IMG/VR virus record: IMGVR_UViG_3300045243_000092
Span: 1 to 36,663 of that record
Direction: 5' to 3' (one strand)
DNA length: 36,663 nucleotides
DNA from: a virus
Program-made: the position numbers and the translations under genes
Part shown: positions 5,274 through 12,193 of the stretch, piece after piece
How the letters are laid out: the number at the start of each line of letters is the position of its first letter
Position numbering within the stretch: position 1 is the first letter of the stretch
The notes under the pieces: model-generated
Databases searched by the model: none
What the model was told of the DNA's origin: nothing
The model's input: the letters and a program-made list of their open reading frames with translations, nothing else

Positions 5274-5450
5274 ATGAGCGAAGTCAAGGATTACACGGAA
5301 GAGAAAGAATATAATCACTACAATGGTGTGCCATCAATGTATGGTAAATTGGTTGATGAGCAATGCAGACAACAGCCTAAATACTGCATGCCAGGTGAAG
5401 TTGGCGCAGATATGAAAGGCGAGCATCGAAATGAGCAAGCAGGTCCTTAA
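5274..5450 (+). CDS. Small hypothetical protein upstream of small terminase
   Basis: This 58-residue hydrophilic protein is rich in Glu, Tyr, Gly and Met. The ATG at 5274 is preferred over a GTG at 5265 because CGGAG sits 8 bases before it. Its stop overlaps the small terminase start (TAATGG). No family is recognised. Two Cys (EQCRQQPKYC) lie in the middle. It is the first gene of the late packaging operon. Confidence 0.6.
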   Translation: MSEVKDYTEEKEYNHYNGVPSMYGKLVDEQCRQQPKYCMPGEVGADMKGEHRNEQAGP

Positions 5451-5896
5451 TGGCTGGCGGAAGACCCACTACATATACAAAAAAAATGGCGGATAGAATA
5501 TGCGAGATTGTCGCTACTAATCGCCATGGACTTAAAAAGCTTTGTATTATGTTCGAAGAATTGCCAGATGATAGCACAATTAGACGTTGGGCAATCATGA
5601 ATCCAGGGTTTTCAGCCCAATATTTGAACGCAAAGCGTCAACAAATTGACATTGTTATGGAAGAAATAGATGAAATCATTGATGAAAACCTTAGGTTCTA
5701 TCATGATGACCATGGTAATGAGCGGATAGATTCTCCCTCGGCGTCCATTGCTATTGCTAAAGCGAATAATAAGAAATGGTTTGCTTCAAAATTAGCTCCT
5801 TCCTTATATGGTGATAAAAAAGAAGAACAGAAACAAGAATCAACTTCTTTGCTAGAAAAATTAATCACAGGCGAAATAAAAGTTTCACATGAGTAA
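5450..5896 (+). CDS. terS: Terminase small subunit, Sf6 gp1-like
   Basis: This 148-residue protein matches the Sf6-type small terminase. It starts with GGRPTTYTKKMADRICEIVA, then a helix-turn-helix with DDSTIRRWA, then a helical oligomerisation region, and WFASKLAPSLYGDKKE near the end (compare WALARMNPRKYGDK in Sf6). It recognises the packaging start site on concatemers and delivers DNA to the large subunit. It is coupled to the genes on both sides (TAATG start, 8-base overlap at the end). The packaging site may lie in or near this gene, as in P22, but none was identified. Confidence 0.88.
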   Translation: MAGGRPTTYTKKMADRICEIVATNRHGLKKLCIMFEELPDDSTIRRWAIMNPGFSAQYLNAKRQQIDIVMEEIDEIIDENLRFYHDDHGNERIDSPSASIAIAKANNKKWFASKLAPSLYGDKKEEQKQESTSLLEKLITGEIKVSHE

Positions 5897-6166: not shown

Positions 6167-6277
6167 ATGTGCAACAAGCATAAATGGATTAAATTAATAT
6201 TATCTTACCCGAACATGAATGAATTTATATTTTACCGCTGTAGTCTCTGCCTAGAAGAAAAACATTTAACATGCTAG
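6167..6277 (+). CDS. Possible 36-residue zinc-ribbon mini-protein
   Basis: A short ORF with CNKHKW at the start and YRCSLC near residue 28 ends within the terL start codon region, giving a 7-base overlap. The C..H...C..C pattern is like small phage zinc-ribbon proteins. No convincing ribosome site precedes the ATG, so expression is doubtful. The arrangement could also help couple translation to terL. Confidence 0.35.
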   Translation: MCNKHKWIKLILSYPNMNEFIFYRCSLCLEEKHLTC

Positions 6278-7773
6278 ACCTTTATGATTTAACAAAATTC
6301 GCTCCAGAGTTCTTTAGGATAGCGGACAAAAGCGGCAATCTCATCCCCTTCACATTTAACAAAGCCCAACAACATGTCCATCAAAAACTAGAAGAACAGC
6401 TCAAAGAACTGGGTTATATTAGAGCAAATATCCTCAAGGGCAGACAGCAGGGTATATCAACGTATATATCATCGCGATTCTTTCATAAAGTTCTAACCAC
6501 CCCAGGAACCCAGGCATTCATTCTTACACATATGGGAGATGCAACACGCTCTCTTTTTGCAATGACAAAACGTTATAATAATAATCTTCCCCTGGGCCTT
6601 GCTCCCAAAGCAGATAAAGACAATGAGAACCAACTTCTTTTTAACAAGCTTAATTCAGGCTATAGAGTGGGTACAGCTGGCTCAAAAGAAATAGGTCGCT
6701 CTATGACAAACCAGCTTTTACATATGTCTGAATATGCGTTCTATGACAGTCATGGAGAGATTAAGCGTGGTATCGAGCAGACCGTGGCGGACATTGCTGG
6801 AACTGAGAAAATAAAGGAATCTACAGCCAACGGGATTAATAACGCTTTCTACATTGATTGGCAGAACGCTAAAGAGGGAAATTCGGACGCAATTAATATA
6901 TTCGTTCCTTGGTACTGGCAAGACGAATACACGCGAGACGATAAGAATCAAGAGCTTAGCGACGACGAAAAAGACTGGGTGGGACTTTATCAGCACAATG
7001 GCCTAACTCGCAGGCACCTTGCATGGCGCCGCAATAAACTCAATGACTTTGATGGAGATTACGACCAGAAGCAGAGGGGGTTTAGGCAGGAATACCCCTT
7101 CACCGATGAAGAAGCATTTATCAACTCGATTACAGATACATTCATCACAGTAGAGCCCGTAATTAAAGCAAGAAAAATGCGTGTAGACAGCGAGTCTCCT
7201 TTGATTATCGGCGTTGACCCAGCACGGGGAGGGATTGATAAGTCGGCAATATGCTGGAGAAAAGGACGATTAGTTTACAAAATAGAAACATATCAAGGGC
7301 TCAACACGATGGAGCTCGCCGGAAAACTTAAGACCTTTATTGACAAAGATAAGCCCGTAAAAGTGTTCATAGATTGTATAGGTATAGGTGCTGGAACTAC
7401 TGATAGAATGAACGAAATGGGCTATGACAACGTAGTCGGTATTAATGTTGCGCGCTCTGCTAATAATGCAGATAGATTCTTAAATCTAAGGGCCGAACTA
7501 TGGCATGAAATGCGTGAATGGTTTTTGCAGGACATGCCGGTGCAGATACCCGATGATCCGGAGCTTCAGAAAGAGCTATGCGGTCTAGGATATGGACATA
7601 ACAGCTCGGGACGGTTGTTTATAGAGAGCAAGATTGATGCTAGAAAGCGCGGGATGCATTCCCCGGATAAAGCGGATGCACTGATGATTACATTTGCTTA
7701 TGGGCAACATGCTGGTAATTCAGCGTATAAACCAAATTATATTTCTAAAGATACTGCGGGGATGTTTATATGA
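6271..7773 (+). CDS. terL: Terminase large subunit (headful-packaging ATPase and nuclease)
   Basis: This 500-residue protein is a full-length P22/Sf6-type large terminase. The ATPase has a Walker A-like motif GRQQGIST (57-64) and a Walker B-like LLHMSE (149-154) with the catalytic Glu at 154. The RNase H-fold nuclease has conserved acidic residues in IIGVDPARGG (Asp316), VFIDCIG (Asp368) and SPDKADA (Asp466/Asp469). It pumps DNA into proheads through the portal and cuts it when the head is full. That agrees with a circularly permuted genome and the circular assembly. Its TGA overlaps the start of a small gene (ATGA). Confidence 0.95.
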   Translation: MLDLYDLTKFAPEFFRIADKSGNLIPFTFNKAQQHVHQKLEEQLKELGYIRANILKGRQQGISTYISSRFFHKVLTTPGTQAFILTHMGDATRSLFAMTKRYNNNLPLGLAPKADKDNENQLLFNKLNSGYRVGTAGSKEIGRSMTNQLLHMSEYAFYDSHGEIKRGIEQTVADIAGTEKIKESTANGINNAFYIDWQNAKEGNSDAINIFVPWYWQDEYTRDDKNQELSDDEKDWVGLYQHNGLTRRHLAWRRNKLNDFDGDYDQKQRGFRQEYPFTDEEAFINSITDTFITVEPVIKARKMRVDSESPLIIGVDPARGGIDKSAICWRKGRLVYKIETYQGLNTMELAGKLKTFIDKDKPVKVFIDCIGIGAGTTDRMNEMGYDNVVGINVARSANNADRFLNLRAELWHEMREWFLQDMPVQIPDDPELQKELCGLGYGHNSSGRLFIESKIDARKRGMHSPDKADALMITFAYGQHAGNSAYKPNYISKDTAGMFI

Positions 7774-7946
7774 ATCAATTTACTGAAGAAGAATTACAAC
7801 AAATATTGATGGATATGAATTCGTTAGTTATTAAATATGGCGAAGAAAATGTCGATAGTTTTTATTTAGAATTGATTAATAAAACAAAGCGAATGATTGA
7901 GGATTACGACAATAGCAGCACGGACAGTGACGTGCAGGTTGGGTGA
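7770..7946 (+). CDS. Small acidic hypothetical protein coupled to terL
   Basis: This 58-residue acidic helical protein begins with MNQFTEEELQQ and ends with a Ser/Asp-rich tail. Its ATG overlaps the terL stop (ATGA), which supports a real, coupled gene. No domain is recognised. Its last codons begin the structured non-coding stretch before the portal gene: GGTGA at 7942-7946, which includes the stop, can pair with TCACC at 7972-7976. Confidence 0.55.
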   Translation: MNQFTEEELQQILMDMNSLVIKYGEENVDSFYLELINKTKRMIEDYDNSSTDSDVQVG

Positions 7947-8193
7947 GTAATGGCTGTCTGCTAGACCTAAGTCACCAATCTCCAGAATCAAGCAGATTAC
8001 GAAAGGAAGCAGGTGTAATTCCTGCCTATTGTCACCAAAATTATGGGGTAAGCACATAACCGTGAGGCGTGCGCCACCTGAGTAAATTACCTTCGCACAT
8101 CATAAGGGCGAGAGTTTGTGGGTAATTGAAGCGAGATGAACGCAGGGTACATACTCTTACCCCACCATATCGTTACTAACGACAAGGATTGTC
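7947..8193 (+). ncRNA. Candidate structured RNA / cis-regulatory leader of the portal gene
   Basis: This gap has no ORF but several mutually consistent helices. GCAGG 8009-8013 pairs with CCTGC 8021-8025. A perfect 9-bp helix joins TGGGGTAAG 8044-8052 and CTTACCCCA 8156-8164. It encloses AATTACC 8085-8091 / GGTAATT 8121-8127 and TCGC 8093-8096 / GCGA 8108-8111. Next to the start codon, GACAA 8181-8185 pairs with TTGTC 8189-8193 and holds the ribosome site AAGGA. The competing hairpin TCGTT-ACT-AACGA (8170-8182) overlaps it. This is the shape of a translational switch. GGAAGCAGGTGTAATTCCTG at 8005-8024 resembles the core hairpin of cobalamin riboswitches, but the rest of that structure is not clear. 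Confidence 0.5.
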
Positions 8194-10536
8194 ATGGTAA
8201 GAAAAGCAGAGAAAATAGCACATCGTGCGCGCTTAGCTTGTGAGAAATGGCGTGAACATTTCAAATACAATATTGATATGTATCATCAGGAGCATACTTT
8301 TGTTCTAGGCCAGCAATGGACCGATGACGAAGAAGAGATGCTTAAAACATTTCGTAAAGTTCCTTTGCAAGCTAACAAATTAGCCGCCATGGCCAATTCC
8401 TTGCTTGGTGAGCAGCAACAGAATACTCCTCAGCTTGAAGTTATTCCCCTATCCAATTGTGATGCCGAAACAGCGAAGTTACGCGAGCTTATCACTAAAG
8501 ACATTATGTTCTCTTCAGATGCTAAGACCGCTTATCAAGTTGCCGCAGGTCAAGCATTCATTGGAGGATTCTCTGCCTTTTGTGTTGACACAGATTACAT
8601 CCATAACCGTTCTTTTGATTTAGATATTGTTTACAGATATTTCAAAGATGCATCACGAACTTATTTTGATATGGGTTCTGAGAAAATAAACAAAACAGAT
8701 GGTCAGCATTGCGGCTACATTACTCGTATGACTCGTCCTAAATTCAAACAGGTGTATGGTAAAGATTTAGAAGAAAAGATTTCAAAGACGATGAGCCCTT
8801 CAGCGACTGAAGAAGAAATTGCTTTAGCAGTCGAGCCATCCTCTGGAGGAGGAGACGACCCATTTACTTGGGCTGACAATGACGGTATAACAATAATTGA
8901 CCATTTCGTAAGAAAATATGAAAAAGATATGCTCTACAAATTGTCTAATGGTCGAGTATGTAACCAAGAAGAAATGGACGAGCTGATAGACCAATCAGCC
9001 AAGATTAATGAGCAAGAACAGTTAATGCAACAAGCGCAAATGATGCAACAATTACAAGCGCAGCAACAAGGGCAAGGAATGCCCCAACAAGGAAGTGACG
9101 AAGGGCAGGGAATGCCAATGCAGGGAATGGGTATGGATGAAGGCATGCAGTACGGAATGCAGCCAGAACCACAACTACAAATGCAACAACAGCCACAGCC
9201 AATGCCAGAAATGGAAGGGCGAGAGAACGAAGACGGAATTATGACACTCTGGGATGATGGCGAGGTAGTACGTATCGAAGAGAAGCGTGATTTCAAGCGC
9301 CACAAAATCATGCATTATAAGATTGCAGGTGACTATATTCTTGATGAGTCTGAGTTTCCATCGGAACAACTTCCCGTAGTATTTGTAGACCATAACTCCT
9401 ATTACGACAAGAACGGGAAGCAAGTGTGCCGCTCCTTCTTTGGTGATGCTCGAGACACCCAGCGCTATATTAACTACCTTAGAACTCAATCCGCTTACAT
9501 TCTAAAAGTTTCACGATACGACCAATTCATGGGCAGCAAGAAGAACGTACAGTCCCAGGACACACAAAGAGACTGGAAAGACCCAGGCAATACCCAAGGT
9601 TTATTGAGGTACGATGAATCACCCAACGGTCATAAGCCTGAGCAGATACGCCCTCCAGAATTATCGCAATCATTAATGAGTCAATATCAGCTCGCAATTG
9701 AAGATTTATACACAATCACAGGGCTCTACCCAACGCGAATGGGCGAGCAAGGGAACGAAGTTTCAGGAGTGGCAATCGATGCGCGAACACGACAGGGCTC
9801 TTATAGTACTTATGTTGCTTTTAACAGTATTAATCGTGCTATTGCTACAGGCGGTGAAATCGTAAATGAGATGATACCAAGGGTTTACGACACAGAAAGA
9901 GTACTAGCGCTAATGACTCCTGATGAAGGAATGAAGAACATCACCGTTAACAAGCAGGCAGATGAATATGGTGAACGCATTGAGAATGACATACGTAAAG
10001 GTTCATACCAAGTTCGCTTAAAGCCAGGACCAAGTTATGAAGGACAGAAGCAAGAGGCACTTATTTCATTGCAACAGGTACTTCAAGCTGACCCAGATGC
10101 ATTCAAGTTAATCGCTGATTTGTTTGCTGAGAACCTACCATTATCTAATAACCTAGAAATAAAGAACCGCTTAAAAACTATGGTTCCTCCTGCAATTATT
10201 GAGGCTGGAAAGTCCGGAAAGATGCCGCAACAACAGGGTCCAAGTCCAGAGCAACAACAAATGCAGCAACAAATGCAAATGCACCAACAGGAAATGCAAT
10301 TTAAAGCTAAAGAACTGGAGTTGAAAGAAAAAGACCTTGAGCTGAAGCAACAGAAAATTATGATGGACGCTCAGATTGAGATGCAGAAGCTTGAGGCAGA
10401 GAAAATAGAAGTTGCAGGCCAGATACAGGAACAGGAGTTGAGGTATATGGCTGAAACTGAACGGACACAGAGCGACGCAGCAATAGCGCATGCAGATAAT
10501 CTGGTTAAGATTTTAACTAGTAAAGTGCCTGATTAA
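8194..10536 (+). CDS. Portal protein, P22 gp1-like
   Basis: This 780-residue protein forms the dodecameric ring at the head vertex, through which DNA enters and leaves. It follows the P22 portal plan: N-terminal helical part, central stem and clip domains with DARDTQRYINYLRTQSAYI and GEIVNEMIPRVYDTERV, and a long C-terminal helical barrel rich in Gln, Glu and Met (about 680-760). A Gln/Met/Gly-rich low-complexity insert (about 272-340) is unusual and makes it longer than the 725-residue P22 protein. Its ribosome site lies in a hairpin loop of the structured leader. Confidence 0.92.
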   Translation: MVRKAEKIAHRARLACEKWREHFKYNIDMYHQEHTFVLGQQWTDDEEEMLKTFRKVPLQANKLAAMANSLLGEQQQNTPQLEVIPLSNCDAETAKLRELITKDIMFSSDAKTAYQVAAGQAFIGGFSAFCVDTDYIHNRSFDLDIVYRYFKDASRTYFDMGSEKINKTDGQHCGYITRMTRPKFKQVYGKDLEEKISKTMSPSATEEEIALAVEPSSGGGDDPFTWADNDGITIIDHFVRKYEKDMLYKLSNGRVCNQEEMDELIDQSAKINEQEQLMQQAQMMQQLQAQQQGQGMPQQGSDEGQGMPMQGMGMDEGMQYGMQPEPQLQMQQQPQPMPEMEGRENEDGIMTLWDDGEVVRIEEKRDFKRHKIMHYKIAGDYILDESEFPSEQLPVVFVDHNSYYDKNGKQVCRSFFGDARDTQRYINYLRTQSAYILKVSRYDQFMGSKKNVQSQDTQRDWKDPGNTQGLLRYDESPNGHKPEQIRPPELSQSLMSQYQLAIEDLYTITGLYPTRMGEQGNEVSGVAIDARTRQGSYSTYVAFNSINRAIATGGEIVNEMIPRVYDTERVLALMTPDEGMKNITVNKQADEYGERIENDIRKGSYQVRLKPGPSYEGQKQEALISLQQVLQADPDAFKLIADLFAENLPLSNNLEIKNRLKTMVPPAIIEAGKSGKMPQQQGPSPEQQQMQQQMQMHQQEMQFKAKELELKEKDLELKQQKIMMDAQIEMQKLEAEKIEVAGQIQEQELRYMAETERTQSDAAIAHADNLVKILTSKVPD

Positions 10537-11904: not shown

Positions 11905-11957
11905 AGTCCCGCTAACTTTCGCATGGGTTAATCGGGACCTCCCCAAAGCGGGGGCTT
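11905..11957 (+). terminator. Two hairpins after the scaffold operon, possible attenuator or terminator
   Basis: GTCCCG followed by TAAC (from about 11907) pairs with GTTA followed by CGGGAC (about 11928-11939), a long stem with a small bulge. A second hairpin, CCCC/GGGG around AAAGC (about 11941-11954), follows at once. There is no long T-run, so this may be an attenuator or RNA-processing site rather than a full terminator. A DnaA box TTATCCACA lies just downstream at 11995-12003. Confidence 0.45.
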
Positions 11958-12025
11958 AATAATACCACAAAGATTAGTGTTTTCTCCATAAAACTTATCC
12001 ACAAAAAGCTTTGATAATAGTCGGT

Positions 12026-12057
12026 TTGACAAAAAATATAACCAGGAATATCCTGGT
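12026..12057 (+). promoter_or_regulatory. Candidate promoter overlapping a palindrome upstream of the coat gene
   Basis: TTGACA (12026-12031, perfect -35) and TATCCT (12049-12054) are 17 bases apart. The -10 lies inside a perfect inverted repeat, ACCAGGA-ATA-TCCTGGT (12041-12057), a likely operator that would block the promoter when bound. This would give the coat gene its own controlled transcription. Confidence 0.5.
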
Positions 12058-12118
12058 GGTTGACGTGTAGCCATAGCAAGAATCCGTCACTTGCGACAAA
12101 AAAATGGCGTGTATTTCT

Positions 12119-12188
12119 AGTCTCCCGCCGGACAAATGTTTAGGTGCTCAAACATTGAGCGTTTATTAATTTGTTCGTCAGGGAGACT
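12119..12188 (+). promoter_or_regulatory. Branched 5' leader hairpin that sequesters the coat ribosome site
   Basis: AGTCTCCC (12119-12126) pairs perfectly with GGGAGACT (12181-12188). Inside, GGACAAA (12130-12136) pairs with TTTGTTC (12170-12176, one wobble), and GCTCA-AACAT-TGAGC (12146-12160) forms a terminal hairpin. The ribosome site GGGAG (12181-12185) of the coat ATG at 12194 is fully inside the outer stem. This looks like translational control of coat synthesis. Confidence 0.6.
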
Positions 12189-12193
12189 GAGCA

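Follow-up and report, generated by a model that had tools for sequence, protein, structure and literature searches.

The stretch of DNA analysed here, referred to as the window, is a 36.7-kb virus contig (36,663 nucleotides) whose packaging and head module is P22-like. The module encodes an Sf6-type small terminase, the large terminase (TerL), a P22-type portal protein, a scaffold protein and the major head protein. Between terL and portal the window has a gap of 420 nt, compared to the 13-100 nt that are usual in its relatives. The gap contains a small open reading frame (ORF) of 58 amino acids, which possibly codes for a protein; it has no match in Pfam or PHROGs and no relative among the loci searched. 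A promoter and terminator scan of positions 7600-8300 on the gene strand gave no signal exceeding those of shuffled sequences.

The closest relative of the window, locus L002, has terL and portal genes that are 93% identical, and only two short pieces of its terL-portal gap can be aligned with that of the window. One of them, AGCAGGTGTAATTCCTGCCTATTGTCACCA, reads as the T-arm and the 3' acceptor strand of a tRNA-like structure. Its 5' partner, GACAATAG, lies at position 7908, within the 58-aa ORF. The element delimited in this way, termed TLS1 (Table 1), consists of an acceptor stem, a D-arm and a T-arm, and the structured RNA at this gap is a tRNA core whose code-reading arm has been replaced by other RNA. 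We call this replacing segment the cargo. In TLS1 it forms predicted hairpins only and shows no similarity to the other cargos described below in an all-against-all comparison.

Table 1. Position of genes and RNA elements in and around the terL-portal gap of the window.
Feature	Position	Strand	Remarks
Small terminase gene	5450-5896		Sf6-type
terL	6271-7773	+	large terminase; gene 5' of TLS1
Small ORF	7770-7946	+	58 aa; ends within the 5' part of TLS1
TLS1	7908-8037	+	130 nt; acceptor, D-arm, 73-nt cargo, T-arm, ACCA
TLS1 acceptor, 5' strand	7908-7915	+	GACAATAG; 8 of 8 pairs with 8026-8033
TLS1 linker	7916-7917	+	CA, 2 nt
TLS1 D-arm	7918-7935	+	GCACG GACAGTGA CGTGC; 5 of 5 pairs; loop conserved, stem covaries
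TLS1 cargo	7936-8008	+	73 nt; in place of the anticodon arm; predicted hairpins
TLS1 T-arm	8009-8025	+	GCAGG TGTAATT CCTGC; 5 of 5 pairs
TLS1 acceptor, 3' strand	8026-8037	+	CTATTGTC, then ACCA
TLS2	8045-8167	+	acceptor GGGGTAAG (8045-8052) / CTTACCCC (8156-8163); ACCA at 8164-8167
Ribosome-site hairpin	8181-8193	+	GACAA GGA TTGTC; portal Shine-Dalgarno in the loop; covaries in relatives
portal	8194-10536	+	P22-type; gene 3' of TLS1; ATG at 8194

An initial annotation had placed a structured RNA at positions 7947-8193. These borders have to be revised, as the main structure starts 39 bases further upstream, inside the small ORF, and with this start lying beyond the reported border the 5' strands of both the acceptor and the D-arm had been missed. 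Nor does the block fold unusually well: positions 7947-8230 are no more stable than dinucleotide shuffles (z = -0.18), so that stability alone shows nothing. The unconstrained minimum-energy fold of positions 7908-8037, in turn, is exactly the tRNA-like frame. Since its stability reaches only z = -1.9, the proof of the structure is comparative, and on that evidence the structure of TLS1 is near-certain.

A first search pattern, composed of T-arm and acceptor, recovered 13 viral loci, in all of which the T-arm is fully paired and a matching GACAAT is found upstream. The same pattern gave 21 matches in bacterial genomes or chromosomes, none of them with pairing. Later patterns were keyed on the two loops only and thus admit acceptors of any sequence. 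A scanner for the complete frame returned 135 matches, compared to 9 in reversed sequences. The family analysed below comprises the 122 frames that pass the loop filters; they derive from 115 loci of uncultured viruses on metagenomic contigs, and their middles range from 16 to 160 nt with a median of 80 nt.

The helices of the frame are maintained irrespective of their sequence. Among pattern matches selected by loop sequence alone, 85 have both the D-arm and the T-arm paired, and in 83 of these at least 7 of the 8 acceptor pairs are present; for matches with an unpaired or poor D-arm the number of acceptor pairs is mostly 2-5, scattering around 3-4. Among type I members 70 different acceptor sequences occur, with pairing kept, and full acceptor pairing is observed in 86% of cases vs 7% when the strands are shuffled between members. 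Moreover, in an alignment of 40 members double changes occur at 16 of the 18 pairs, and the covariation score is 0.848, compared to 0.209 for shuffled and at most 0.117 for slid alignments. The 40 members were chosen as fully paired, and it is therefore the acceptor pairing after selection by loops only that carries the weight. Covariation also extends to the elbow. The pair 19-56 is GC in 116 of the 122 members, UA in four, AC in one and GU in one, the latter being the window, where U56 of the T-loop is opposite G19. The pair 18-55 is AG in 121 members and GU in L294, the sole member with a canonical T-loop. Thus, the test among homologues that had been proposed beforehand is strongly positive: covariation shows the structure of the frame, and the frame is selected as RNA. 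A protein-coding reading of the D-arm (DNSGVDSDT) is ruled out, because the acceptors vary freely but remain paired.

The most conserved parts of the frame are its two elbow loops, GACAGTGA and TGCAATT, which are found in nearly all members, although this conservation is overstated, as the loops were partly specified in the search patterns; acceptor and cargo are free to vary. The 8-bp acceptor followed by a 5-bp T-arm with a 7-nt loop corresponds to tRNA-type stacking and is present in the window as well as in the family. The D-stem has one more pair than that of an ordinary tRNA. The last base of the middle, which corresponds to tRNA position 48, is A in 112 of 122 members. An ACC(A) directly 3' of the acceptor is found in about one fifth of the members only. 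Instead of U, position 55 of the T-loop is G, and the D-loop does not have GG; the combination of a tRNA-type T-loop (UUCRANY) and a D-loop GG is absent from the family, except that the T-loop of L294 is canonical. Finally, an anticodon arm of 5 bp with a 7-nt loop is absent, as the middles share no common structure.

Acceptor, D-arm and T-arm, together with the location of some members in tRNA arrays and the alignment of one member, L151, with the whole tRNA-Sec model (16.9 bits), could be taken to mean that these RNAs are unusual working tRNAs, which decode and whose middle is an altered anticodon domain or a removable intron. We regard this as very improbable: there is no common anticodon arm, the 71-nt element of L070 has a middle of 16 nt that cannot accommodate one, the acceptor sequences show no limit to their variation, and ARAGORN with introns allowed finds no such tRNA in the window.

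To search more widely we used a covariance model, R1, of 40 members from which the window and L002 were left out. On the window, R1 recovers positions 7908-8033 with 74.4 bits (E=1.1e-17). Among the terminase/portal relatives it matches L002, L044 (two matches), L045 (two matches), L051, L053, L073, L087 and L115. Of 48 viral records, the majority of them picked because they carry a copy, 46 were positive. Whole viral records have one to three copies of the frame, in several cases in tandem, only a few hundred bases apart. There was no match in 21 bacterial loci, in the T4 tRNA region or in Caulobacter phage loci, and none in 369 gammaproteobacterial genomes in a search with strict filters and no positive control. 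No Rfam family reaches its gathering threshold in the window, and between positions 7700 and 8400 nothing credible is detected at E<=5, neither a tRNA nor GOLLD, ROOL or tmRNA; YrlA is also absent from these matches, insofar as Rfam has a model for it. ARAGORN, run for tRNAs and tmRNAs with introns allowed, reports nothing in the window. BLAST searches of the gap and of the 5' and 3' family consensus against phage isolates gave chance matches only, which does not prove absence from isolates, as the 5' consensus recovers only 63 of the 115 known loci at that E-value. Salmonella phage 7t3 and the Caulobacter phages CcrBL9 and CcrSC were checked as carriers and rejected; at the Caulobacter loci R1 is negative. 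We found no description of the family in the literature searched, in which subscription journals are little covered. Thus, about 120 tRNA-like RNAs form a family that has no entry in any database searched. The suggestion that the gap holds a real structured phage RNA that is not in Rfam is in this respect supported by both covariation and Rfam searches.

Downstream of TLS1 lies a second element, TLS2. It is closed by the 9-bp helix 8044-8052/8156-8164 (TGGGGTAAG/CTTACCCCA), which the initial annotation had correctly seen in the sequence and which is the acceptor of TLS2. At the same place L002 has a second element with a different acceptor (GAAAACAC/GTGTTTTC), a T-arm and ACCA. In TLS2 no T-arm is recognisable, and its body resembles the cargo found in L196, with 92% identity over 36 nt and 86% over 29 nt. 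The acceptor helix of TLS2 is very probably real, and its kinship to the tRNA-like family is likely. The body motif was considered as a separate family and rejected, as its core is found in IMG/VR only in L196.

Immediately upstream of the portal gene, the hairpin GACAA GGA TTGTC that had been described as enclosing the ribosome site and abutting the start codon is present. In relatives of the window, a portal-start hairpin with a stem of at least 5 bp and the Shine-Dalgarno sequence in its loop is found in 29 of 84 cases, compared to a mean of 6.9 and a maximum of 13 when the arms are exchanged, and thus does not arise by chance. A competing hairpin at 8170-8182 (TCGTT ACT AACGA) likewise exists in the window but is broken in L002, where TCGTT is replaced by CATTT. 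The hairpin design is not restricted to portal. For 10 of 21 genes of the window, a hairpin near the start codon, with a stem of at least 5 bp, displays the Shine-Dalgarno sequence in its loop, where 2.5 are expected and the maximum of the null distribution is 5; the starts concerned include those at 8194, 10640, 22966, 24434, 25050, 26101 and 27296. In the relatives the same holds for 87 of 507 cases (31.8 expected), and the design is absent from bacterial control loci. Its genome-wide occurrence argues that the ribosome-site hairpin is a start-site style of this phage group and not a switch of portal. That the elements together form a translational riboswitch or a protein-sensing leader of portal, as originally put forward, is thus scarcely credible, even though the hairpin covaries and lies directly downstream of the elements: the frame adjoins many other genes and occurs in tRNA arrays, cargos recur next to unrelated genes, most relatives keep portal without the frame, and the competing hairpin is not kept in L002.

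A further leader in the window, that of the major capsid gene (12118-12189), forms a long hairpin, GTCTCCCGCCGGACAAAT...ATTTGTTCGTCAGGGAGAC, that covers the Shine-Dalgarno sequence. Its sequence and fold are kept in many relatives, with some paired changes, and it has no Rfam match; it is a candidate translational control element. By eye, a promoter-like TTGACA...TATCCT is seen upstream of this leader at about 12027-12055, and a terminator-like double hairpin at 11905-11965, 3' of two small ORFs.

The frames have a marked preference for intergenic sites, 16% being half-covered by an ORF of at least 90 aa vs 69% expected. The commonest arrangement, seen in 59 of 122 frames, is on the same strand as both flanking genes. 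Eleven frames have a true tRNA gene no more than 30 nt away (spacing 2-21 nt) on their own strand and none on the opposite strand, with 0.27 expected by random placement; the frame of the window is not among these eleven. In the phage group of the window the frame is found between terL and portal in the window itself and in L002, L044, L051, L053, L073 and L332, and upstream of terL in L087 and L045; elsewhere, frames adjoin many other, unrelated genes. In the majority of relatives that share this terminase and portal, the gap measures 13-100 nt and lacks the element. This bears on the speculation that the packaging motor uses a free RNA encoded in the gap, comparable to the pRNA of phi29; the position between terminase and portal genes in the window speaks in its favour. 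With the element missing from most phages that have the same two proteins, frames of other phages sitting by unrelated genes, and no resemblance to an Rfam family, we hold the chance of such a role to be next to nil.

Several frames have neighbours of note. In L327, L340, L402 and L405, ORFs resembling HNH endonucleases or zinc-finger proteins adjoin the frames (by eye), hinting that some frames may sit at hot spots of mobile elements. Other tRNA-like elements adjoin frames in L153 (463-606), L154 (just past the frame) and L193 (2681-2837). They have the acceptors TGGGATTG/CAATCCCA and TAGTAAGT/ACTTATTA and T-loops of TGAAAAT or TGAGAGC, and judged by these features they possibly represent sister families.

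When all cargos were compared with each other, 99 of 123 had no detectable relative, and the remainder fell into small clusters. Within clusters some cargos are 77-90% conserved between phages with different neighbours, and the cargo can be kept when the acceptor is changed (L398, GATAGAAG, vs L403, GGCAATCG). One class of cargo is found between terL and portal in L002 and among small unknown genes in L442 and L444; another is found in L390 between two genes that are unlike the secreted-protein genes adjoining L394 and L403 (neighbours by eye in both cases). Cargos shared between different neighbours and acceptors are more in keeping with a portable RNA gene than with the leader of a single gene. 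That most cargos have no relative could reflect either free exchange or an absence of function. A role of the cargo as antisense RNA was considered and rejected, as there are no long matches to the own phage except for a duplicated element in L327. The frame of L160 lies inside a tRNA array, and Rfam detects a degenerate tRNA within its cargo. Pieces that resemble tRNAs and have a canonical T-loop, TTCGA or TTCAA, are seen in the cargos of L154 (5282-5412, minus strand; coordinates refer to the reverse complement), L156 (1042-1167), L160 (3056-3252) and L161 (3164-3314).

The frame, then, has a conserved structure, is spread over more than 100 viral loci, prefers intergenic regions and in some phages is located in tRNA operons. 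The reading that we favour, and consider on balance probable, is that the family consists of tRNA-like noncoding RNAs that carry arbitrary cargo and are excised as stable RNAs by tRNA-processing enzymes; RNA C and RNA D of phage T4 are RNAs of the same type. In the window, TLS1 is on the strand of terL and portal and no promoter or terminator signal was detected around it, which suggests that all three are transcribed together. The tRNA-like fold would be recognised by RNase P and 3'-processing enzymes of the host, and TLS1 would be cut from the terL-portal transcript, leaving the messages of the two genes apart. The product would be a stable RNA with the cargo as its working part, matured and protected by the tRNA core, in other words a natural 'tRNA scaffold'. 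Cutting and stability are suggested by the tRNA-like fold and by the spacing inside tRNA arrays; with G at T-loop position 55 and a D-loop without GG, cutting by RNase P is plausible only.

In the main rival, the element is a cis-acting cut signal: RNase P and RNase Z would cut the terL-portal message ('tRNA punctuation'), allowing separate expression of the two genes, and the cargo would be filler. Such a role fits the intergenic siting, most commonly on the strand of both neighbours, the cargos of 16-160 nt that are mostly unrelated, and the absence of the element from most relatives with the same gene pair. It leaves unaccounted for, however, the cargos that are conserved across phages with different neighbours, as well as the elements that occur in tandem and within tRNA arrays, where extra cuts are unneeded, and we judge it rather unlikely. 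A role as decoy or inhibitor, in which the RNA mimics the top half of tRNA and occupies a host enzyme or a defence nuclease specific for the tRNA elbow or acceptor, the cargo being secondary, appears improbable. It would explain why the elbow loops are the most conserved part and why acceptor and cargo vary freely, and anti-defence functions are known to reside in phage tRNA arrays. However, part of the loop conservation results from the search patterns, and cargos of up to 160 nt as well as conserved cargo clusters would be superfluous for a decoy.

Taking the favoured reading of an excised, cargo-carrying RNA one step further, the family may, as we tentatively suggest, be a natural tRNA-scaffold platform, in which interchangeable functional RNA domains are mounted on a stripped tRNA core, matured and protected by it through the tRNA enzymes of the host, and swapped like cassettes from phage to phage, with T4 RNA C and RNA D as distant examples. 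In any case, a covariance model is now available for an RNA family that is absent from Rfam and is missed by tRNA finders in the window, and a tRNA core can stay under selection with its anticodon arm exchanged for unrelated RNA.

Individual features of the family are known from other systems. In the engineered 'tRNA scaffold', an RNA insert takes the position of the anticodon arm and is protected by the tRNA fold (PMC3753655); that arrangement is man-made, whereas in the family it is natural and protection is inferred. With tmRNA the family shares tRNA-like ends that enclose a long non-tRNA middle, but its D-stem is a genuine 5-bp helix and its middles span 16-160 nt. tRNA-Sec, which has an 8/5 body, likewise combines an 8-bp acceptor on a 5-bp T-arm with a lengthened D-stem, and L151 aligns end to end with its model, but at 16.9 bits compared to a cut-off of 47; moreover, the family has no anticodon arm, other loops and a free acceptor sequence. 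GOLLD and ROOL are often found near tRNA islands, and GOLLD linkers sometimes contain tRNAs (PMC12286853). Like the family, they are phage or prophage RNAs without known function, and some family cargos likewise contain tRNA pieces, but GOLLD and ROOL are much larger and their structures are unrelated. The closest parallel is provided by T4 RNA C (species 1, 139 nt) and RNA D (species 2, 119 nt), which are located in the T4 tRNA array and are produced, their function being not known (PMC9697503, PMC3014915). Neither is matched by R1, and no homology of sequence or frame was found. Inspected by eye, RNA C lacks a GACAGUGA D-arm, its acceptor is imperfect, and its T-loop, UUCGAAU, is of the canonical type. 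Yet a T-arm lies close to the 3' terminus of RNA C, which also gives a faint match to tRNA-Sec (17.5 bits, compared to 16.9 bits for L151), and RNA C and RNA D, like members of the family, are phage noncoding RNAs of about 120-140 nt, TLS1 measuring 130 nt, that lie in or beside tRNA genes. The family adds more than 100 examples of such RNAs, and the old puzzle of T4 RNA C and RNA D thereby becomes a testable comparative question.
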